From NCBI GenBank assembly GCA_011772205.1, contig WVZY01000031.1, forward strand, positions 62,001-126,000: 64,000 nucleotides of DNA, read 5' to 3'. The first letter of the stretch is position 1. The number at the start of each line of letters is the position of its first letter. The notes under the pieces were generated by a model, which had not been told where the DNA came from, did no database searches, and was given only the letters and a program-made list of their open reading frames with translations. The stretch comes from Candidatus Latescibacterota bacterium (GTDB lineage: Bacteria > Krumholzibacteriota > Krumholzibacteriia > WVZY01). A program made the translations under genes and the position numbers. This document shows, in pieces, positions 5,907 through 52,208 of the stretch.

Positions 5907-7766
5907 ATGTTGAAGCGCCTGCTGTTATTGATCGCCGTGCCTACGCTCTTGTGGAGCTGCAGCACGATCGGCACTCACGGAAGCGGAGCCGGCAAGAGCC
6001 ATGACACCCCACAAACGCCCGATGGTCCTGAACCGCCCGATGTTCGGGCCATGGAAGCCTTCCAGGTCCGCCTCGATTCAGCTCTCACTCTCTTCTATTT
6101 TGGCGATGTGCCGAATTTCTACAGCACTCAGGATTCGCTTAGAAGAGATGTTGCCGCTTACCTCGAGGAGCATCCAAGCGCCGCTTCCGACCCAGGTTTC
6201 CATTGGCTGCAAGTCAAGATCGAGCAACTGGATACGCTGATGGCGGGGGTGGATTATCTCCACCCGTACATCGCCCGAATGGACAGCCTGGCACTCGCCC
6301 ACGGGCATTGGCCGGAAGATGACACCACCAACGGCGCCGCCCGGTTCCAAGCTGTCGAGGACACGGTATTTCCGGCGATGCGCAACAGACGCATCGACTT
6401 TTGGATTCGGTATTTCTGCGGCCCAGGGAGAAAAAACTTCGAAAGAGCGCTTTACCGAATGGAACTCCACCGGCCGACGATCGAGAATATTCTAGAGGAG
6501 TTGGATCTCCCTAATGAGCTGATCTGCTTGGCACTGATCGAAAGCGGCTTCAACCTCAAGGCGAGGTCGCGAGCGAAAGCTGTTGGCCCATGGCAATTTA
6601 TAAGCGGTACGGCCAGGCTATACGGCCTCCGCGTAAACTGGTGGTTGGACGAGCGGCGAGACATTGTTGCAGCATCCTACGCGGCCGGCAATTATCTCAA
6701 GGACCTGTATTCTATTTGGGATTCATGGTTCTTGGCGATGGCCGCCTACAATGCCGGTGAATACCGTGTGGCTAGGGCCGTCGCCAGGCATAGGACAAAG
6801 AATTTTTGGAAACTTCGGCTCCCGAAACAAACCCAGCGCTATGTTCCAAAATTCCTTGCCGCTCTTTACATCGCAAGGGAACCTGAAAAGTACGGATTCA
6901 AAGTGCCGGATGTGGAGCCGATCTCGTTCGATCTCGTGCCCGTTAAAGATGCCACGGATATCAATCTCATAGCGGAATCCTGCGGAGTAAGTGTGGAAAC
7001 CATCAAGAGCCTCAACCCGGCGCTTTTGCGCTGGTGCACGCCTCCCAAAACGGAGTTGCTCGTAAAAGTGCCCGAAGGAAGCGGGCAGAGCTGCGAAACG
7101 GCTCTGGCGTCGATACCCGCCGAGAAACGGGTTACATGGCGCAGGCACACGATCCGAAGAGGTGAAACGCTATCGCTGATCGCAAGGAAATATCGAACAA
7201 CCGTTACTACGCTCAAGCGCTTGAACGGCATTCGTAACTCCCACTTCATCCGCGAAGGTCGAACACTCATTGTGCCTTTGATGGGTGCGTATGCAGAGGT
7301 GGCGAGCAGCAAGCCTCAATACAAATCGAAACGGAGAAGCATCAATAAGAAAGCGCTCGAGTCCTATGCTAAAAGTTATGCACCACCGAAGGGTTACAAG
7401 AGCGTCATCTACCGGGTGAAAGATGGGGATACCTTAGGGGAGATTGCCGAAAATTTCAGAACCAGCGCCCGGAAGCTTCGCCGGTGGAACAATCTCTCCT
7501 ACCGTTCCTACATTCATCCAGGCCAGAAACTCGTCGTGTATGTCCCCGAATCCTTCGACCTAGCAAGAGCCCCTGTGCTGGAGTCTGTCCGCCCCATGGG
7601 AAAGAACTACGTGAGATCGCGTTACGTCGTTAAAAAAGGAGATACACTCTACGCCATCAGCAAGCGTTTCAACGTCCGCGTCAGTGACCTGCTGATGTGG
7701 AATGGTAAAAGCAGGAGCTCGGTGATTTATCCGGGAGAAGTGTTGGAGATTTGGACGGCCAAATAA
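5907..7766 (+). CDS. Membrane-bound lytic transglycosylase, MltD-like, with three LysM repeats
   Basis: Cleaves peptidoglycan glycan strands. The 619-residue protein begins with a lipoprotein signal ending LLWSC (Cys18). A lytic-transglycosylase (SLT) domain spans about residues 195-310: the catalytic Glu is in ALIESGFN, and AVGPWQFISGTA and AMAAYNAGE are the family blocks. Three LysM peptidoglycan-binding repeats lie at about 414-457, 502-547 and 573-619, each starting with a GDTL or GETL core. GGAGAGGAG precedes the ATG at good spacing. The gene is monocistronic on the plus strand, and its end faces the PorV-like gene convergently 22 bases away. Confidence 0.95.
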   Translation: MLKRLLLLIAVPTLLWSCSTIGTHGSGAGKSHDTPQTPDGPEPPDVRAMEAFQVRLDSALTLFYFGDVPNFYSTQDSLRRDVAAYLEEHPSAASDPGFHWLQVKIEQLDTLMAGVDYLHPYIARMDSLALAHGHWPEDDTTNGAARFQAVEDTVFPAMRNRRIDFWIRYFCGPGRKNFERALYRMELHRPTIENILEELDLPNELICLALIESGFNLKARSRAKAVGPWQFISGTARLYGLRVNWWLDERRDIVAASYAAGNYLKDLYSIWDSWFLAMAAYNAGEYRVARAVARHRTKNFWKLRLPKQTQRYVPKFLAALYIAREPEKYGFKVPDVEPISFDLVPVKDATDINLIAESCGVSVETIKSLNPALLRWCTPPKTELLVKVPEGSGQSCETALASIPAEKRVTWRRHTIRRGETLSLIARKYRTTVTTLKRLNGIRNSHFIREGRTLIVPLMGAYAEVASSKPQYKSKRRSINKKALESYAKSYAPPKGYKSVIYRVKDGDTLGEIAENFRTSARKLRRWNNLSYRSYIHPGQKLVVYVPESFDLARAPVLESVRPMGKNYVRSRYVVKKGDTLYAISKRFNVRVSDLLMWNGKSRSSVIYPGEVLEIWTAK

Positions 7767-7788
7767 CCTGCTTGTCCAAAACAGCGTG

Positions 7789-8841
7789 CTAAAATTCAGC
7801 AAGTGCTGACACGCGATGGGTAGCTTCGAAATCGTCGTGATGGAGATAAGCGTAGTCAAATCCTAGAAATCCGAAACGGACTCCCGCCCCGGCCGTAGGG
7901 TTCCCACTATCAACACCTCCGCGGACCATTACCCGCTCTTGAAACCGAATCTCGCCTCCGAAGTGGAGATCGGCGCTGGTCCGTCCAATCCAAAGCTGGG
8001 AGGCATTCTGTCTATTCTCGAAGAACACATCCGCGTCGAAAGCGATCAATAGCGAGCCGTTCAGCGAGTGAGAGGACAGAGTGTAGGCGGTACCGAGTTT
8101 GATCGAAGGGGCAATGAATTCGTTTGTGCCGCTACTCCAGCTGATGTATGTGCCGGTTATGTCCTGGAGCTTGACTCCGATGTCGAAGCTGGGAAAGAGA
8201 TCTTTGTAGAGAAAGCCTAGATCGAGTCCAATACCGGTACTGCTATAACCTGCAACGGCGTTCGAATAGAGAAGCTTAAGCGCCCCGCCTACGCGGCCGT
8301 AACCGGTCTTCAATGCGAAGGAACTAAGCAGAGCAAGATCGTTGTTGTTTTCCTTGGGGATCGAACTCATGTCGTAGTTTAATATGTCTCCGTCGTTGGG
8401 CTGAAACCCGGGGATCCCGTTTCGTTCCTCCCAATTCAAATGGTTGGTGATCGCAATATCGTCCACGCCCAGATGAATGAGCGCGAAGCCAAAAGCCGCC
8501 TCTTTTTCGGAGGATAAGATGCGGGCGGGCATCACAAACGATGCGAAGTTATAGTTAACTAACTGGCCGAACCGCTCGGAGTGCATGAAGAGAGCCTGTC
8601 GTTTCGTGAAACCGGAGATGCCGGAAGGATTCCAGAACACCGTTGACGCATCGTTTGCAACGGCTGCAAACGCTCCACCCATTCCCAAAGCCCTCGCTCC
8701 GCCGCCCATAGCCATGAAGTCACCCGCGAACTTCTTCGCGCCAGCATTCTGGGGCAAAATCAACATACCGACGAAGAGCAGCAAACACAGAAGATGAGAA
8801 ATCGTTATGCTGAGAAATGAGATTACAGTACTGCGCATCAT
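7789..8841 (-). CDS. PorV/PorQ-family outer-membrane beta-barrel protein
   Basis: The family includes PorV, an outer-membrane shuttle of type IX secretion, and related barrels of unknown role in FCB bacteria. After a signal peptide ending near NAGAKKF comes the typical block GARALGMGGAFAAVANDAST followed by FWNPSGI. The rest alternates as expected for a barrel (FGGEIRFQERVMVRGGVDSG) and ends in hydrophobic and aromatic residues. A TTG start at 8871 is possible, but AAGGA just before tandem ATGs at 8841 and 8838 favours these. A promoter lies at 8920-8947. It may serve secretion of the 'YPNP' proteins in the window (inference). Confidence 0.85.
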   Translation of the reverse strand: MMRSTVISFLSITISHLLCLLLFVGMLILPQNAGAKKFAGDFMAMGGGARALGMGGAFAAVANDASTVFWNPSGISGFTKRQALFMHSERFGQLVNYNFASFVMPARILSSEKEAAFGFALIHLGVDDIAITNHLNWEERNGIPGFQPNDGDILNYDMSSIPKENNNDLALLSSFALKTGYGRVGGALKLLYSNAVAGYSSTGIGLDLGFLYKDLFPSFDIGVKLQDITGTYISWSSGTNEFIAPSIKLGTAYTLSSHSLNGSLLIAFDADVFFENRQNASQLWIGRTSADLHFGGEIRFQERVMVRGGVDSGNPTAGAGVRFGFLGFDYAYLHHDDFEATHRVSALAEF

Positions 8842-8919
8842 AGAATCCTTCGAAATCACCAAGATCTGCAATCAGGGGGTCTTCAGAGGGGTCGAACTGT
8901 TAACCGTAGCTTCTTACTA

Positions 8920-8947
8920 ATTATAGCACCAAGACGCTATTGCGCAA
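8920..8947 (-). promoter_or_regulatory. Sigma-70-type promoter of the PorV-like gene
   Basis: On the minus strand, TTGCGC (8942-8947) and a perfect TATAAT (8920-8925) are separated by 16 bases in the gap after the preceding regulator gene. This suggests the PorV-like gene can be transcribed separately from the regulators upstream. Confidence 0.5.
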
Positions 8948-8987
8948 AAGATGTTTTTCGCTCTTTTTCCGACCTGCGCTGAATTCA

Positions 8988-10454
8988 TTACACCAATCCA
9001 TACTCCTTGATTTTCCGATACAGGGTCCGTTCGGAAATACCCAGGATCTCCGATGCTTTCCTCCGATTCCCTCCCGTCACTAGAAGGGCTTGTGTGATCG
9101 CCTCCCGCTCTATCTGGTTTAAGGAACGTCCATCGATGCCCTCCCGCTGAGCATCCGTGCGTACCTCTCTCAGGCCCTCCCATGCTCCTCCACGCTGATC
9201 CCTCAGGATATCCAGTATTTCTCGGACATCGCGGTGAAGAGCCAGAATGGATGCGTATATCATTTCCCTCTCGGCTTCGTCCTTCGAACGATGCAGGGCA
9301 ACAGGTAAGAGAGAAGGACTCTCCATCTCCTCCTTGGCTAGCTGGGAAGCTACGAGTTCTGCCGCAATCTTTTGAGTGCTCGATAAGACGACCAGCGTAT
9401 CGATGAGATTCCGCAACTCCCTGATGTTCCCCGGCCAGCTGTATTCGCTGATTCGGCGCAGAGCGCCGCTTTCCACTCCCTTGACGTCTTTCCCATGCCG
9501 CGCGCTTGCCTGCAGGATGAATTGATCGACCAGATGGGGGATGTCCTCCTTTCGATCTCGAAGTGGGGGGAGGTGCAGATTCACGCCCTTGAGTCTATAA
9601 TAGAGATCCTGGCGGAACTTACCCTCGCGCACGGCTTCCCCGAGATTTCGGTTCGTGGCCGCTATGATACGAATATCCACCCGAAAACTTTTGATTCCGC
9701 CCACACGAAGCACTTCGCCGGATTCGAGTACCCTTAAGAGCCGAACCTGCATGTTCGGACTCATCTCACCGACTTCGTCGAGAAAAACCGTTCCGCGATC
9801 CGCCCTTTCGAACAAACCCTCGCGGCGTGCTACAGCTCCCGTGAAAGCACCTTTTTCGTGGCCAAATAGCTCACTCTCCAGCACGCCTTCTGCGAGCGAT
9901 GCACAATTGATGGCCTCAAAAGGGCCGCCCTTCCGCCGGCTGGCGAGGTGGATGGTCCTGGCGATGACGTCTTTGCCCGTGCCGCTTTCGCCTTCGATCA
10001 GAATCGGCACCTCCGTCGGCCCTACCTGAAGGATCGCCTCTACGATCTCCTCGATGGCAGGCGCGCGGCCGATGATCCCTGTGCTGGCTTTTAGTCGCGC
10101 GAGATCGGTTCGGTGCCGCAAGGCGGCTTCGAACGCGACGTGATCGATCGGGCGCGAATAGTAATAGTCCACTGCCTCGTGACGCTCCCTCGTGAGGATT
10201 TCCTCTGATTTCGGGCCGCCGATGACCATGGCATCCATCCCCGGATGGCGCTTTCTAACTCGCTTGATGAGAGATAGGTAGTTCTGGGCTGCCGCTTCGT
10301 CGATGACAAGCAGATGCAGCGCGTCCAGTGGGACGGACATGATGTGAACTGGCTCATTCAAGAAAGTAACGACATCTTCCTGGCTGTCCGCAATGTAGTG
10401 GACAATCTGGCGCACTTGTTCATCTGTGGTGACAGCAAGTATCTGTAGTTCCAT
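8988..10454 (-). CDS. Sigma-54-dependent transcriptional activator with a degenerate receiver domain
   Basis: An NtrC-type enhancer-binding protein of 488 residues. The N-terminal 120 residues have a receiver-like fold, but the conserved Lys-Pro is Arg-Pro (YYSRPI) and only part of the acidic pocket is kept, so phosphorylation is doubtful. The AAA+ domain (about 128-360) is complete: Walker A GESGTGKD, an intact GAFTGA loop in [11 protein letters not shown], and Walker B VFLDEVGEM. A Fis-type helix-turn-helix ends the protein (NRRKASEILGISERTLYRKI). It should open sigma-54 promoters. A long insert of about 100 residues between AAA+ and helix-turn-helix is unusual. Confidence 0.93.
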   Translation of the reverse strand: MELQILAVTTDEQVRQIVHYIADSQEDVVTFLNEPVHIMSVPLDALHLLVIDEAAAQNYLSLIKRVRKRHPGMDAMVIGGPKSEEILTRERHEAVDYYYSRPIDHVAFEAALRHRTDLARLKASTGIIGRAPAIEEIVEAILQVGPTEVPILIEGESGTGKDVIARTIHLASRRKGGPFEAINCASLAEGVLESELFGHEKGAFTGAVARREGLFERADRGTVFLDEVGEMSPNMQVRLLRVLESGEVLRVGGIKSFRVDIRIIAATNRNLGEAVREGKFRQDLYYRLKGVNLHLPPLRDRKEDIPHLVDQFILQASARHGKDVKGVESGALRRISEYSWPGNIRELRNLIDTLVVLSSTQKIAAELVASQLAKEEMESPSLLPVALHRSKDEAEREMIYASILALHRDVREILDILRDQRGGAWEGLREVRTDAQREGIDGRSLNQIEREAITQALLVTGGNRRKASEILGISERTLYRKIKEYGLV

Positions 10455-10674: not shown

Positions 10675-12075
10675 TCATTGGTGAACGGATACCGGGTCCT
10701 GTTCTTCGCTCAGCGATTTGACTTTTCGCGAGATACTGTACTCGTTCAGCTTGTTTCTCAAGGTACGGACGCTGATATCGAGACTCTTCGCAGCCCTCGT
10801 TCTGTTTTCCTTCAGCTCAACTAGCCGGTTGAGGATCATCAGCTTTTCCATATCGCGGATCGAACCATATCTGAAGGCGTGTTCCATTCTCGACAGCTGC
10901 TCGTCTCTTTCGTTTTCCAGTTGAAAGAAATCCGTGTCCAGCGTGGTACCGCCAGCCATGATCACAGCTCTTTCAATGTGGTTCTCCAGCTCCCTAACGT
11001 TTCCTTTCCAATATGCCTTGCACAGCTTTTTCATTGCATCCGGCGTGAGCTTTATCGGCTCCCTGTGGTTCCGGGACGCATATATTTCCACGAAATGATC
11101 GATGAGGAGAGGGATGTCCTCACTTCGCTCTCTCAAAGGCGGCAGTTCGATTGGAACCACATTCAGCCTGTAATAAAGATCTTCCCTGAGATTCCCTTTT
11201 CGGATTTCCCCCATCGGATCCCTGTTTGTGGCGCCGATAATCCTCACATCTACTTTTACCGTCTTCTTGCCGTCGATCCCGTCGAATTCGCCTTCCTCAA
11301 GAACTCTCAGGAGTTTTGCCTGAGTTGTTGCCGACATTTCGGTGATTTCTTCGAGAAGAACGGTTCCGGCATTTGAGAGTTCCAATCTCCCCGGCAGGAA
11401 GTGAATTGCTCCAGTAGGGGCGACTATCTCCTGCCCAAAGAGCTGGCTTTCGAGAAGAGTCTCGGGCACCGAAGCACAATTAATCTTTATGAACGGATTG
11501 CTTTTCCTGTTGCTCAGTAAATGTATTTCTTGGGCCACAAGTCCCTTCCCCGTGCCATTCTCGCCCGTTAAGAAAATGTTTGTTTCCGCAGGAGCAACCA
11601 ATCGGATCTTTTCCCTGATTTGTTGAATAGCCACAGAATTGCCAACGAGTAACTTAGCTCCGGAAGTGTCCTCGAGCTGGGTTTGGAGAGCTCTGTTCCG
11701 CCTTTCCAGCTCCCTGAACTCGATGGCCCGCTCGATCGCATGTTTGAGCGCGTCGATTTTAATAGGTTTTTCGATGCAATCACACGCACCGAGCCGTATG
11801 AGCTTCGATGCGATATCGACGTCGCTCATGGCTGTGTCCGCGATAGCGATGATGTCCATACCCATTTCGACCACTTTCGATATAAACGCCTCGCCATCAG
11901 CGCCGGATGTTGCAATGTCTACGATGAGCATGTCATAGCGTTCCTTGCACAGGACCTCCATTGCTTCGATTCCCGTCGCCATTTTGAGGACGTGATAGCT
12001 GGATTTCAATTCATTCACAAGGAAGTCCGCCACATCGGGTAAATCAGCAACGACCATCAGCTTCTGGGATTTCAA
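10675..12075 (-). CDS. NtrC-family response regulator with defective sigma-54 contact loop
   Basis: A receiver domain (phosphoacceptor Asp53 in MLIVDIATSG, Lys103 in IEKPI) is followed by an AAA+ domain and a Fis-type helix-turn-helix (TRAAKSLDISVRTLRNKL). The AAA+ domain departs from the family at key sites. Walker A is GENGTGKG (171-178), the sigma-54 contact loop GAFTGA is VAPTGA (218-223), and Walker B is VLLEEI instead of FLDEI. It probably does not drive sigma-54 and may act on sigma-70 promoters or as a partner of its neighbours (inference). The start is TTG at 12075, because GGAGGAGGAA precedes it by five bases; the frame stays open further upstream without a ribosome site. Confidence 0.88.
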   Translation of the reverse strand: MKSQKLMVVADLPDVADFLVNELKSSYHVLKMATGIEAMEVLCKERYDMLIVDIATSGADGEAFISKVVEMGMDIIAIADTAMSDVDIASKLIRLGACDCIEKPIKIDALKHAIERAIEFRELERRNRALQTQLEDTSGAKLLVGNSVAIQQIREKIRLVAPAETNIFLTGENGTGKGLVAQEIHLLSNRKSNPFIKINCASVPETLLESQLFGQEIVAPTGAIHFLPGRLELSNAGTVLLEEITEMSATTQAKLLRVLEEGEFDGIDGKKTVKVDVRIIGATNRDPMGEIRKGNLREDLYYRLNVVPIELPPLRERSEDIPLLIDHFVEIYASRNHREPIKLTPDAMKKLCKAYWKGNVRELENHIERAVIMAGGTTLDTDFFQLENERDEQLSRMEHAFRYGSIRDMEKLMILNRLVELKENRTRAAKSLDISVRTLRNKLNEYSISRKVKSLSEEQDPVSVHQ

Positions 12076-42835: not shown

Positions 42836-45800
42836 CTATCGAATCAACGCCACACGCTCGACAAGAAGGTTCGGCACCCTCATGCTCACCTCCACCTTGC
42901 CCAAGAGCAGAAAAGGCCCCGCCCCTTTGAACAGTTCCTCGGCACATCGCTCGTAGCTATCGGGGAAAAACGTTGTCTCGATCCTCCCCCGTTCGTCCGA
43001 AAACGTGACAAACGCCATCACTCTCCCGTCCTTCTCCGTCCGAACCCGCTTCATTGTGACCTCCCAACCCAAACAGTAGATCACCTGGCCGTCGCATGAG
43101 CCCACATCTGTGGAATCGACGATCGGGCGAAGCCTCCTGGCACGATCGATCTGACTCCGGAAAAGGGCGAAAGGATGAGCGGAGACGCACACATCGAGAC
43201 ACTCGAGCTCGTAAGCCATCCGTTCTTCGAATGTGAGATCATCCAGAACAGGAAGCGCTTCCACCACCGCGCGGCGTGTCGAAAGCCCCTCTGACGTGGT
43301 ATCTCCCCTTTCCAGTGTGACGGCGACCTGCCAGAGGATCTCGGGACGGCGCCCCCCCAGCGTGTCCATCGCTCCGCACTTGGCGAGCATCTCCGCTTCC
43401 CTTTTCGTGACGGCAACACGGTCCAGAAAATTCTCGACTGACCGATACTCTCCCCCTGCATCCCTTTTCGATACGATCTGCTCCATCACCTCTCTCCTGA
43501 GTCCTTTGACCTGCATCAGTCCCACTCGAAGCTCTCTTCCTTTTCCAGTATAGGCAACGTCGCTTTTATTGACGCATGGGGGGAGGATCACGAGCCCCAT
43601 CCGCCGCGCCTCCTCCACGTACTCCATCGTGGAATAATACCCGCCCTGATTGGAAAGTACGGCCGCCATGAACTCAGCCGGGTAGTGTGCCCGCCAGTAG
43701 AGACTTTCGAAAGACTCGAGCGCAAAGGAGGCGGAGTGGGCCTTGCAAAACGCGTAGCCCGCGAAGGACTCGATTTGCGAGAACACCTCCTCGATCACCG
43801 GTTCCGGTATTCCCTTCTCGCGCGCCCCCTGGAAAAACCGCTCCTTGTAGCTTTCCATTTTGTGCCAGTTGCGCTTCTTCGACATGCATACCCTCAACCC
43901 ATCTGCTTCCGCCAACGTCATGCCCGCCATCGAAACGGCCACCTGGATCACCTGCTCCTGGTAGATCAGGCATCCGAACGTTTCCTCCAATACCTCTTCG
44001 AGAGAAGGATGCGGGTAGCGAACCGGTTCCTCACCCAGGTAGCGCTTCAAATAGAGCTGCTTGCCGCCATAGTTCGAGACGCCCGGGCGGATGATGGATG
44101 AAAGGGCGGTAAGCACTTCGAAGTCGTCACACTTCGCCTGGCGGAAGAGCTGCTGCATGATCGGAGATTCGATATAGAAGCACCCTTCTGTTTTTCCCTC
44201 GCGCATGAGCGCCTTGCCCTTCTTGTCGCTCAGGTAGTCGATCGACTCCGGGTTGACGGAAACGCCGTAGTTTCTTTCCACCGCTCGGATCGTATCCGAG
44301 ATCACCGCCAGACCCTTCTGACCGAGGATGTCGATCTTGATGAGTCCGGCGTCTTCCACCGGGTACATCGTCCACTGCGTGACCTCCAATCCTTTCTCTC
44401 CCATCTGGAGCGGCATGAAGTCGGTGATCGGTTCCGGAGAAATCACGATCCCGCACGGGTGGGTAGCGACATGTCGGGGAAACTCGGCGATCCGCCGGGC
44501 GACATCGAGGATGGTGTTGAACGGCTCGTCCTCCACGGGAAGGTTTCGCGTCTCGGGGTTTTGCTGGAGTTTTTCTTCTAGGTTCGCCGCGCTCGAGAAA
44601 TGTGGGATCCGTTTGACCACCGTGCCGAACTCGCTTTCGGGAATCCCAAGCGCCTTTGCCACCTCGCGAACGGCGGACCGGGCCCGGAGCGTGCTGATCG
44701 TGGAGACCATAGCCGTATGATCGCGCCCGTACTTTTCGAACAGATAGTCGAGCACGATCTCGCGGTCCTCCGTACCGAAGTCCAGATCGAAATCGGGCGG
44801 CGTCCCCCGCTCGAGGTTCAGGAACCGCTCGAAAAAGAGATTGTGCTCGAGGGGATTCACGTGGGTGATCCATAGGCAGTACGAGACCAGACTGTTCGCC
44901 GCCGACCCCCTTCCCAGAGAAGGCACTCCCTTTTCCCTGGCGAAACGGACGATGTCCCAGCAGACGAGAAAGTACGATGCCATTTTCAACCTCTCGATCA
45001 CGTCGAGCTCGCGTGCAAGCGTCTCGTGGGCCTCGCGCGTGAACGGCCCACAACGCCGGCGCAGTCCTTCGAAGGCCAGCGCGGTGAGATACGAGTAAGC
45101 GCTCTCTCCCTGAGGCAATGGAAACCTCGGGGGACGCGATCTACCCAGTTCGAGATTCACGTCACAGGCCCACGCGATTTCGGCAGCCGCTCGGAGGCTC
45201 TCGGGGAAGTCGCGGAAAACGTCACGCATCTCCGCGGCGCTCTTGAGATAGCACTCCGGCGGGGCTACCGCACCCTCGGGAAGGGTGCCCACCGTCGTTC
45301 CCGTCCGAACGGCTGAGAGCACCCGGTGGATGAAATGGCCATCGGGCTTCAGGAAATGAACGTCGTTGGTCGCCACCGTTCTCAAACCGCACCGGTCGGC
45401 GAGGCTCCGGCAGTAATAGCGCTGCTGCCGCCCCTGGTGCCCCACGCCGGAAGGAAGCGCCACGTACACATGCTTTCTTCCGGACAGGCGCTTCAGCTGG
45501 TTCTCGCAACGGGTGAGCACGAAAACGTTTTCCGACACGCCTTCGAGCGCCTCGAGCAGCGAAAAATCAGCATCCAGGTGTCTCGCCGTGACCAGCCGGC
45601 AGATCTCGCTGTAGCCCGCACGGTTCCGTGGGAGCAGCACCGCTTTTTCGGCGGTGCTTCCTTCCGGACAGGCGATCTCCGCTCCTGGGATCGGTTTGAT
45701 CCCCGCCTTCTGGCAGGCCTGAATGAATGGGACCGTGGCGTACATCCCGTTGGTGTCGGTGAGCGCGAGGGATTCCATCCCCAGCGCCGCCGCCCCATTC

Positions 45801-45874
45801 ACGAGGTCCTCGATGGTGCTGGAGCCGGAGAGGAGCGAATAGTTCGAGTGAACGTGCAGATGGACAAAAGACAT
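42836..45874 (-). CDS. dnaE2: Error-prone DNA polymerase III alpha subunit (DnaE2/ImuC type)
   Basis: 1012 residues, shorter than replicative DnaE (about 1160). The N-terminal PHP domain begins FVHLHVHSNYSLLSG, and the polymerase active site PDFDLDFG holds Asp361, Asp363 and Asp365. The third carboxylate lies in LIKIDILGQKG. A helix-hairpin-helix and a C-terminal OB domain (EKDGRVMAFVTFSDERG) follow. It sits 29 bases after lexA on the same strand, so the damage response would control it. DnaE2 carries out translesion synthesis with ImuA and ImuB partners in other bacteria. A stand-alone replicative DnaE must be elsewhere. Confidence 0.93.
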   Translation of the reverse strand: MSFVHLHVHSNYSLLSGSSTIEDLVNGAAALGMESLALTDTNGMYATVPFIQACQKAGIKPIPGAEIACPEGSTAEKAVLLPRNRAGYSEICRLVTARHLDADFSLLEALEGVSENVFVLTRCENQLKRLSGRKHVYVALPSGVGHQGRQQRYYCRSLADRCGLRTVATNDVHFLKPDGHFIHRVLSAVRTGTTVGTLPEGAVAPPECYLKSAAEMRDVFRDFPESLRAAAEIAWACDVNLELGRSRPPRFPLPQGESAYSYLTALAFEGLRRRCGPFTREAHETLARELDVIERLKMASYFLVCWDIVRFAREKGVPSLGRGSAANSLVSYCLWITHVNPLEHNLFFERFLNLERGTPPDFDLDFGTEDREIVLDYLFEKYGRDHTAMVSTISTLRARSAVREVAKALGIPESEFGTVVKRIPHFSSAANLEEKLQQNPETRNLPVEDEPFNTILDVARRIAEFPRHVATHPCGIVISPEPITDFMPLQMGEKGLEVTQWTMYPVEDAGLIKIDILGQKGLAVISDTIRAVERNYGVSVNPESIDYLSDKKGKALMREGKTEGCFYIESPIMQQLFRQAKCDDFEVLTALSSIIRPGVSNYGGKQLYLKRYLGEEPVRYPHPSLEEVLEETFGCLIYQEQVIQVAVSMAGMTLAEADGLRVCMSKKRNWHKMESYKERFFQGAREKGIPEPVIEEVFSQIESFAGYAFCKAHSASFALESFESLYWRAHYPAEFMAAVLSNQGGYYSTMEYVEEARRMGLVILPPCVNKSDVAYTGKGRELRVGLMQVKGLRREVMEQIVSKRDAGGEYRSVENFLDRVAVTKREAEMLAKCGAMDTLGGRRPEILWQVAVTLERGDTTSEGLSTRRAVVEALPVLDDLTFEERMAYELECLDVCVSAHPFALFRSQIDRARRLRPIVDSTDVGSCDGQVIYCLGWEVTMKRVRTEKDGRVMAFVTFSDERGRIETTFFPDSYERCAEELFKGAGPFLLLGKVEVSMRVPNLLVERVALIR

Positions 45875-45903: not shown

Positions 45904-46539
45904 CTATCGATAGCGCCTCAACAGTCCCACGACGATTCCTTGAATCTGCACGGCGCGCGCATTCCGTACAATCGGTGGGTGGGCCTCGTTGGCCGAGGCG
46001 AGCTCCACACTGCTTCCCCGCTGGTGGAACCGCTTCACCGTGGCCTCCCTGCCATCGATGAGAGCGATCACCAGCGCGCCGTTATCCGCCGTCTCCCTCT
46101 TTTCGACCACCAGCGTGTCGCCGTCCAGGATCCCTTCGTCTACCATCGAGTCGCCTTTCACATCGAGGGCGAACGTTTCCCCCCTCCCCAGAAGGGCCTC
46201 GGGCACCGAGATGTCTTCGGGGTCCGGGATGGCCTCGATGGGATTTCCCGCGGCGACGCGTCCCATCAGCGGTATGCGTGCGGCGGCGCGTTGCGCCAGG
46301 GCTGCAGGGGCAACCGAAAGCGAGCGGGATTGGTTCCATCCGCGGGCGAGATAACCTTTTTCAATCAGCCGCTCGATATGCTCGTGTACGGTGCTAACGG
46401 CAGACAGTCCCAGGTGTTCCCGTATCTCGTGAAGCGTCGGCGCGTACCCCTCGGTTTCGAGAAACAAACTGATAAAACTCAAAATCCTCCGCTGCTGCCG
46501 GGTGAGAACGGGCAGCGGTTTTTTCGGGGATTTCGGCAT
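45904..46539 (-). CDS. lexA: SOS-response repressor LexA
   Basis: 211 residues with an N-terminal winged helix (LTRQQRRILSFI, APTLHEIREHLG, STVHEHIERL) and a C-terminal S24 self-cleavage domain. The cleavage site Ala97-Gly98 lies in GRVAAGNP, the catalytic Ser131 in KGDSMVDEG and Lys169 in REATVKRF, so RecA-stimulated autocleavage should work. The ATG at 46539 has GGGGAGG seven bases upstream. An upstream ATG at 46584 is rejected because it falls before the predicted transcript start. The promoter at 46587-46615 carries the candidate operator, which implies autoregulation. dnaE2 follows in the same transcript. Confidence 0.96.
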   Translation of the reverse strand: MPKSPKKPLPVLTRQQRRILSFISLFLETEGYAPTLHEIREHLGLSAVSTVHEHIERLIEKGYLARGWNQSRSLSVAPAALAQRAAARIPLMGRVAAGNPIEAIPDPEDISVPEALLGRGETFALDVKGDSMVDEGILDGDTLVVEKRETADNGALVIALIDGREATVKRFHQRGSSVELASANEAHPPIVRNARAVQIQGIVVGLLRRYR

Positions 46540-46586: not shown

Positions 46587-46615
46587 AGCATAGGCGAAAG
46601 TAAACCGAAAGTCAA
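46587..46615 (-). promoter_or_regulatory. lexA promoter with candidate direct-repeat LexA operator
   Basis: On the minus strand, TTGACT (46610-46615) and TATGCT (46587-46592) are separated by 17 bases. The spacer contains TTTCG-GTTTAC-TTTCG, a direct repeat with an 11-base period. The 22 bases 46594-46615 match those upstream of the Y-family polymerase gene (52188-52209) at 21 positions. Occupation would block RNA polymerase. Confidence 0.75.
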
Positions 46616-50954: not shown

Positions 50955-52160
50955 TCACCGCAACACTGCATTCGCAGCGGCTTCGTCTTCATCTGGAGCG
51001 AATGTTTTTCCAAAACACAGAATCTTCTCTCCGGGGTATTTCTCCCGGACCATGTCGCAAGCGCGGTAAAGCCGAGCAAGTTTGCCATTCTCGCATTGGA
51101 AGAGATCCATCTGTTCGGTTAGCGGCACAGGACGCGCCGCCGCAAGGTGGAGAGCCCTTACCTTTACTCGGCGGGTGTATGCTCGTTTGAGGAGGATCAC
51201 CGCTTCTTCGTAAAGGCGCCGGTCGGAATGGCACACCTCACCGAGCCGCGCCCCATGCGTTGCCTCGTAGCCATCGGTATACGACAGCCGGAGCCGGAGC
51301 TTCCGTGCCCCCTGACCTCTCCGGCGAAGCTCCCTGCCCAACGCCTCCGAGAGCATGTATAGCTCGGCATCGATGCGAGAGAGCTCGACCATGTCGTTTC
51401 GAAATGTGATCCCCTTTTCTACGATTTCCCCGTCCCCGTCCGACCGTACACGCCGGTTGTCCATGCCGCCCGCTCTCTCGACGAGCGTCTTTCCAAAAGA
51501 CCCCAGAACACACTCGGCAAGCGGCGGCGGCACCTGCGAAAGTGCCCCGATCGTTTTGATTCCCAGCGAAGAGAGTGTCTCCCGGTGCGACGGACGTATG
51601 CCGGGAAGCCAAGAGAGGGGAAAGGGCGCGAGAAACTCGCGCTCTTCCCCGGCCGAGACGGTGACAATCCCTCCGCGCTTGGCGACCTTCGAGGCGACCT
51701 GGCTAACGAGTTTGTTGGGGCCGAGCCCCAGTGACACGGTCAAGCGCGGTGCGGCGGCCAGCTTTTTCTGCACCCGCCAGGCGGTGTCCTTCACCTCACC
51801 GAAGAGCCGTGCGCAGCCCGTGTAGTCCATAAAACCCTCATCCAAGGACACTGGCTCAACGAGCGGGCTGTAGCGCCTCACAAGCGAAAAGAGGGCGTCT
51901 GACGCTCGGCGGAACAGAGCCCAGTCAACCTGAACGAAAGCCGCGCTGGGAGAAAGCCGCCGGGCCTGAGGTATCGTAAGTCCCGGATGGATTCCCTCGG
52001 CCCGTGCTTCGTACGACGCGGCCAGAACGACCCCGCGGCTGGAGAGGTGCCCGACGACGACCGGGCGAGACTTCAGCGCGGGGTCTCGGAGCCGAACGAC
52101 GGAGGCAAAAAAGTCGTCGCTGTTTATGTAAATGATCTCGCGGGCATTAGAGAACTTCAT
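50955..52160 (-). CDS. Y-family DNA polymerase (DinB/ImuB-like) with an altered active site
   Basis: 401 residues. The fold is complete: palm start REIIYINSDDFFASV, SLDEGFMDYT with Asp107 and Glu108, a helix-hairpin-helix (LSSLGIKTIGALSQ) and a little-finger domain. In working Pol IV the first block reads hhDMDxFF; here the first carboxylate is Asn13, while Asp15 and Asp16 follow. The C-terminal QMDLF (350-354) is a normal beta-clamp motif. ImuB proteins lose catalytic carboxylates but bind the clamp, so this may be an intermediate. The ATG at 52160 follows GGAGG and matches the promoter at 52180-52208. Confidence 0.9.
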   Translation of the reverse strand: MKFSNAREIIYINSDDFFASVVRLRDPALKSRPVVVGHLSSRGVVLAASYEARAEGIHPGLTIPQARRLSPSAAFVQVDWALFRRASDALFSLVRRYSPLVEPVSLDEGFMDYTGCARLFGEVKDTAWRVQKKLAAAPRLTVSLGLGPNKLVSQVASKVAKRGGIVTVSAGEEREFLAPFPLSWLPGIRPSHRETLSSLGIKTIGALSQVPPPLAECVLGSFGKTLVERAGGMDNRRVRSDGDGEIVEKGITFRNDMVELSRIDAELYMLSEALGRELRRRGQGARKLRLRLSYTDGYEATHGARLGEVCHSDRRLYEEAVILLKRAYTRRVKVRALHLAAARPVPLTEQMDLFQCENGKLARLYRACDMVREKYPGEKILCFGKTFAPDEDEAAANAVLR

Positions 52161-52179
52161 GGAGAACCTCCACGCTTCG

Positions 52180-52208
52180 ATTATAACCGAAACTAAACCG
52201 AAAGTCAA
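52180..52208 (-). promoter_or_regulatory. Y-polymerase promoter with candidate LexA operator
   Basis: On the minus strand TTGACT (52203-52208) and a perfect TATAAT (52180-52185) are 17 bases apart. The spacer carries TTTCG-GTTTAG-TTTCG, the same direct repeat with an 11-base period as at lexA. The predicted transcript start leaves a leader of about 12 bases containing GGAGG. Confidence 0.75.

Follow-up and report, generated by a model that had tools for sequence, protein, structure and literature searches.

An asparagine at the first catalytic position of a Y-family protein

Does a Y-family DNA polymerase in which asparagine has replaced the first metal-binding aspartate still synthesize DNA, or does it serve as an adaptor for another polymerase? 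The question is raised by polY (50955..52160, reverse strand), which encodes a 401-aa protein (P0001) in the window, as we call the whole 64,000-nucleotide stretch of Krumholzibacteriota DNA analyzed here. The open reading frame spans 50955-52208, with a likely start at the ATG at 52160 and a GGAGG ribosome site. PolY matches the Pfam families IMS (3.2e-42) and IMS_C, its full-length AlphaFold2 model is confident (mean pLDDT 91), and the solved structures in the PDB nearest to that model are DinB, Dbh, MsDpo4, and Dpo4; by all three measures the palm, fingers, thumb, and little finger of the Y-family fold are present.

The palm motif reads YINSDDFF (residues 11-18; 52107..52130, reverse strand, as are all features below), against hhDMDxFF in DinB, which makes the first metal-binding Asp Asn13. 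This substitution, claimed in an earlier note on this DNA, is seen directly in the sequence as an AAC codon at 52122-52124; the codon of Asp16 lies at 52113-52115. Likewise as that note had it, the second catalytic pair, Asp107-Glu108 (51837..51842), and the clamp-binding motif QMDLF (residues 350-354; 51099..51113) are intact. The fingers motif YEAR (residues 50-53; 52002..52013) supplies Tyr50 and Arg53, which we take to bind the triphosphate by analogy with Dpo4 Tyr48 and Arg51, and Lys161 (51678..51680), the counterpart of Dpo4 Lys159, is presumably a further triphosphate contact. Residues 364-384 (51009..51071) resemble the RecA N terminus: a profile of the PolY tail aligns without gaps to RecA N termini, at the position and in the register expected of such a motif (P = 0.003, with a match probability of only 10%), and single-sequence scoring is mostly not significant, including for the window PolY alone. 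The model has a helix at 356-374 that overlaps the start of this tail. A RecA-binding tail on PolY is plausible, on a weak profile match. The genome of the window has a second Y-family gene, an ordinary DinB with DMD (contig C12), and another DinB is kept in 14 of the 16 genomes that host the Asn13 polY clade.

Asn13 is fixed in a Krumholzibacteriota clade

The earlier note had proposed aligning homologues to see whether the asparagine is fixed. Asn13 is present in all 13 clade sequences that cover the site, including that of the window, to which the others are 36-56% identical; their palm consensus is H-[VI]-N-T-D-D-F-[YF]. Asp15, Asp16, Phe17, Tyr50, Arg53, Asp107, Glu108, and Lys161 are also invariant in 13/13, as are Gln350 and Leu353 of the clamp motif. 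Because only ~17% of positions are invariant in the clade, with a mean column identity of 57%, the invariance of Asn13 is not due to chance. Asp occupies the site in 76/76 other loci of the genome scan and in 17/17 aligned ordinary DinBs of the phylum. With a dN/dS of 0.11-0.18, the polY clade is, as judged from its sequences, under purifying selection and not in random decay.

A local mutation, an assembly error, or a pseudogene, for which a single GAC-to-AAC transition would suffice, is exceedingly improbable, as the same Asn occurs in 13 separate genomes, within an open frame under purifying selection; the alignment thus refutes the local mutation or sequencing error that the note had allowed for.

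polY is tied to lexA and dnaE2 by operons and a putative operator

In the window, lexA (45904..46539; open reading frame from 46584, likely start ATG 46539; TIGR00498 lexA, 3.6e-57) is followed after 29 bp by dnaE2 (42836..45874), an error-prone C-family polymerase by profile match with an intact PDFDLD active-site motif. polY stands apart from this lexA-dnaE2 unit, 5.1 kb from dnaE2. The earlier note had placed dnaE2 5 kb from polY under a matching promoter; the distance and the shared operator stand, but lexA lies between promoter and dnaE2, so the matching promoter belongs to the lexA-dnaE2 unit. The polY promoter, TTGACTTTCGGTTTAGTTTCGGTTATAAT (52180..52208), has -35 and -10 elements with a 17-bp spacer and a TTTC-N7-TTTC direct repeat, and the lexA-dnaE2 promoter, TTGACTTTCGGTTTACTTTCGCCTATGCT (46587..46615), has the same repeat and the same 17-bp spacing. 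The two share exactly TTGACTTTCGGTTTA(G/C)TTTCG, which occurs without mismatch nowhere else in the 4.13-Mb genome and has no control match. A third operator-like site, with two mismatches, lies on contig C53 at 11685-11705 (L152), with no clear target gene behind it.

This element also stands before lexA in nine of ten operons (it was not found in the high-GC L120), before polY of genome G001 and of the related locus L035, and before several f6-group dnaE2 genes. Across these genomes, TTTC-N7-TTTC between -35 and -10 was noted at the window sites and at L033-L037, L113, L115-L119, L132, L133, L135, L136, L144, and L145, and the genes that bear it are lexA, polY, and dnaE2. The repeat, similar in layout to the alphaproteobacterial LexA operator GTTC-N7-GTTC, is probably a LexA operator of Krumholzibacteriota. 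A LexA (SOS) regulon is recognized by an operator common to lexA and its target genes, which is what the window contains, and a putative operator shared by lexA and polY is what one would expect of a small LexA regulon.

The association with dnaE2 extends beyond the window. A lexA-polY-dnaE2 operon occurs in ten relatives, and polY-dnaE2 stands at contig ends in three more genomes; in G007 the two genes are on separate contigs, and the G001 contig with polY showed no dnaE2. In the DnaE2 tree, the partners of the Asn clade join the DnaE2 of L035 (support 100), apart from the partners of ImuB. Two DnaE2 genes of the window's DnaE2 clade, L138 (G021) and L139 (G014), have no recognizable Y-family partner nearby.

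The window's genome also encodes a further DnaE-family protein of ~920-1115 aa (L225; contig C75, about 5995-9340), with counterparts in eight relatives (L237-L244). L225 has Pfam PHP, palm, finger, and HhH domains. None of the nine genomes examined retains the PDxDxD polymerase motif in this protein, and seven of the nine have also lost the third Asp. It appears to be a C-family polymerase paralogue without catalytic activity that is distributed across the phylum, and it is not mentioned in the accessible part of PMC12926913.

The polY clade and ImuA do not occur together

The earlier note had seen no imuA, and this extends to the whole genome: no ImuA was found in the assembly (~96.5% complete), which has a single RecA. 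No ImuB was found there either, an ImuB query retrieving only PolY, weakly and within the core. PolY stops 47 residues after its clamp motif and has no ImuB-C region; with that region and an ImuA partner both missing, we rejected the assignment of PolY itself as ImuB. Among 58 genomes of the phylum, the Asn13 polY clade is present in 16 (three with partial genes) and ImuA in 18, with zero overlap (P = 8e-4, computed ignoring phylogeny). In the family to which the window belongs, the polY clade is found in two genomes and ImuA-ImuB in four, a split that suggests that the two replace each other. As sister genomes carry canonical ImuA-ImuB cassettes, whose DnaE2 forms a separate clade, PolY looks like an independent route. 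The note had suggested an intermediate or an independent route to an ImuB-like adaptor; an adaptor role and early inactivation fit the sister proteins described below, but PolY does not lie on the path to ImuB itself.

Sister proteins have other lesions in the active site

The Asn clade clusters with two other lines (support 98/95, or 94/95 without the motif columns). One is L035, a single metagenome sequence from candidate division CSSED10-310, which lies 1.1 kb from dnaE2 and keeps Asp13 but has Glu108 replaced by Ala. The other comprises a Desulfosarcina ovata plasmid protein (L186), encoded in the order lexA-DUF72-polY-dnaE2, and L130 of genome G009; both have Asn13 and Asp16 and have lost the SYEAR fingers motif and Asp-Glu. 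The catalytic triad is thus disrupted in every member of the group, by different changes, and by its motifs the Asn clade has decayed least among the three sister lines. The Desulfosarcina-type branch is long, and its DnaE2 partner is not adjacent to that of the Asn clade in the DnaE2 tree. Topology tests bearing on a single origin of Asn rejected neither an Asn clade kept together without L035 (p-AU 0.31) nor, with motif columns dropped, a single Asn group including the Desulfosarcina type (p-AU 0.20).

Of the aligned DinB-type sequences, only those of the Asn clade and these sisters have Asp16. Compensation of Asn13 by Asp16 is unlikely, as Asp16 is found both in L035, where Asp13 is kept, and in the decayed Desulfosarcina-type sisters. 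Separately, three genomes of f6/f7 (G023, G036, and G046) carry lexA-linked 373-residue Y-family remnants without palm motif or fingers (L143, L144, and L145); their dnaE2 lies elsewhere, in G036 behind a similar operator.

A probable docking subunit for DnaE2

We consider PolY to be probably a LexA-controlled docking subunit for DnaE2, in which DNA synthesis has most likely been lost; its motifs are best read as those of a probably inactive adaptor caught early in its decay. Under this model, DNA damage would relieve LexA from the twin operators, whose TTTC-N7-TTTC repeats lie inside the promoters, and lexA-dnaE2 and polY would then be expressed together. PolY would attach to the sliding clamp by its QMDLF motif and might use its tail to bind RecA; it would grip the primer-template with its intact Y-family fold and bring DnaE2, itself with undamaged active-site motifs, to the lesion. 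Its own catalysis would have been blocked early by one fixed change, that of the metal-bridging Asp13 to Asn, with the rest of the pocket kept. The loss of polymerase activity is predicted, as are LexA binding to the operators and the contacts of PolY with DnaE2, the clamp, and RecA. The closest experimental parallel is E. coli Pol IV D8A, changed at the equivalent position, which carries out no DNA synthesis (PMC9522359), although D8A is an alanine and the PolY site an asparagine; our literature search found no Asp-to-Asn mutant at the equivalent site.

What speaks against a pure adaptor is the pocket, whose residues are invariant in the Asn clade, unlike those of the drifting canonical ImuBs of the phylum, which have lost the pocket and vary at position 13 (D, N, S, V, A, E). 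Such invariance would seem to be more constraint than a pure scaffold needs and, together with Asn13, leaves a small but appreciable chance that PolY still binds nucleotides or even catalyzes synthesis in an altered way. PolY could still function as a polymerase through a changed metal site, performing slow, Mn2+-dependent, or modified synthesis beside DnaE2; the metals would be held by Asn13 and Asp15, by Asp16, which is specific to the clade, and by the unchanged Asp107-Glu108 pair. The invariance of all five residues and of Tyr50, Arg53, and Lys161, the low dN/dS, the intact fold in the AlphaFold2 model and its PDB matches, the restriction of Asp16 to this group, and the apparently active Y-family neighbors of DnaE2 elsewhere (L045, L050, L052, and L099; PMC6511836 and PMC12926913) all favor such activity. 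We nevertheless regard it as unlikely, given that the D8A change kills Pol IV and that Asp16 also accompanies a kept Asp13 with a lost Glu108 in L035, as well as the decayed Desulfosarcina type. Also unlikely is the broader view of a re-wired but functional metal site, in which Asn13, Asp16, and the invariant pocket would hold the dNTP-metal and primer end non-canonically, for slow or Mn2+-type synthesis or for binding without chemistry, within a LexA-controlled DnaE2 mutasome.

A nucleotide- or primer-sensing gate, in which PolY would bind DNA and dNTP-Mg without catalysis and hand the terminus to DnaE2, or in an alternative form slow replication by occupying the clamp, appears improbable. 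It would account for a nucleotide pocket fully kept around one changed metal ligand, and dead Pol IV D8A does still slow the replisome in vitro, an effect that its authors credit to clamp binding (PMC9522359); by sequence, however, the gate is hard to separate from the adaptor.

The change from polymerase to adaptor is known mostly from heavily decayed cases, such as ImuB and other inactive Y-family groups. In the Asn clade the active site is all but complete, with a fixed change in a single metal ligand, and its sisters show other or near-total loss; the order of inactivation events and the need for nucleotide binding become directly testable through single-residue changes. DnaE2 systems free of imuA gain a phylum, and a direct-repeat LexA operator is proposed for Krumholzibacteriota.

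Comparison with known systems

PolY has the fold, domains, and clamp motif of DinB/Pol IV, from which it differs in Asn13, Asp16, the loss of a conserved Glu at position 22, and its linkage with lexA and dnaE2. It scores below the cut-offs of the NCBIfam Pol IV models, and the Asp, Asp, and Glu carboxylates of an active DinB/Pol IV are incomplete, with Asn13 throughout the clade. Like ImuB, it is a presumably catalytically compromised, LexA-linked Y-family protein with a clamp motif and a DnaE2 partner; unlike ImuB (about 495 aa), it is shorter, lacks ImuB-C and ImuA, and is paired with a DnaE2 of another clade, and its nucleotide pocket is intact where that of ImuB is eroded.

Inactive Y-family proteins paired with DnaE2 in imuA-free systems have already been described by Timinskas and Venclovas in 2019 (PMC6511836) and 2026 (PMC12926913), the latter as DnaE2B-iPolY-RecA, with gbDinB2-like and scDinB2-like groups. 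An inactive Y-family protein with DnaE2 (the inactivity being predicted for PolY), a clamp motif, and the lack of ImuA and ImuB are common to that system and ours, a RecA-NT motif is expected, and lexA is often in the operon. PolY has the disrupted active site, as Asn13, and a conserved link to a non-ImuB DnaE2, through operons, operators, and the DnaE2 tree; its genome is without ImuA and ImuB (assembly ~96.5% complete). The Desulfosarcina protein L186, a probable stand-in for G. bemidjiensis DinB2 (ACH37529.1) of the gbDinB2-like subgroup, shares Asn13, Asp16, and adjoining dnaE2 and lexA with PolY but, unlike it, lacks SYEAR and Asp-Glu. For scDinB2, we rejected the Streptomyces plasmid records H35 and H37, which have a ~505-aa Y-family protein beside DnaE2 that we read as ImuB-type. 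The main text of PMC12926913 does not mention Krumholzibacteriota. Compared with the published descriptions of the gbDinB2-like and scDinB2-like groups, the PolY clade differs in having only the first Asp changed, with Asp-Glu and the nucleotide pocket invariant. On these features, the PolY clade is best described as a minimally changed iPolY variant of the DnaE2B-iPolY-RecA type in Krumholzibacteriota.
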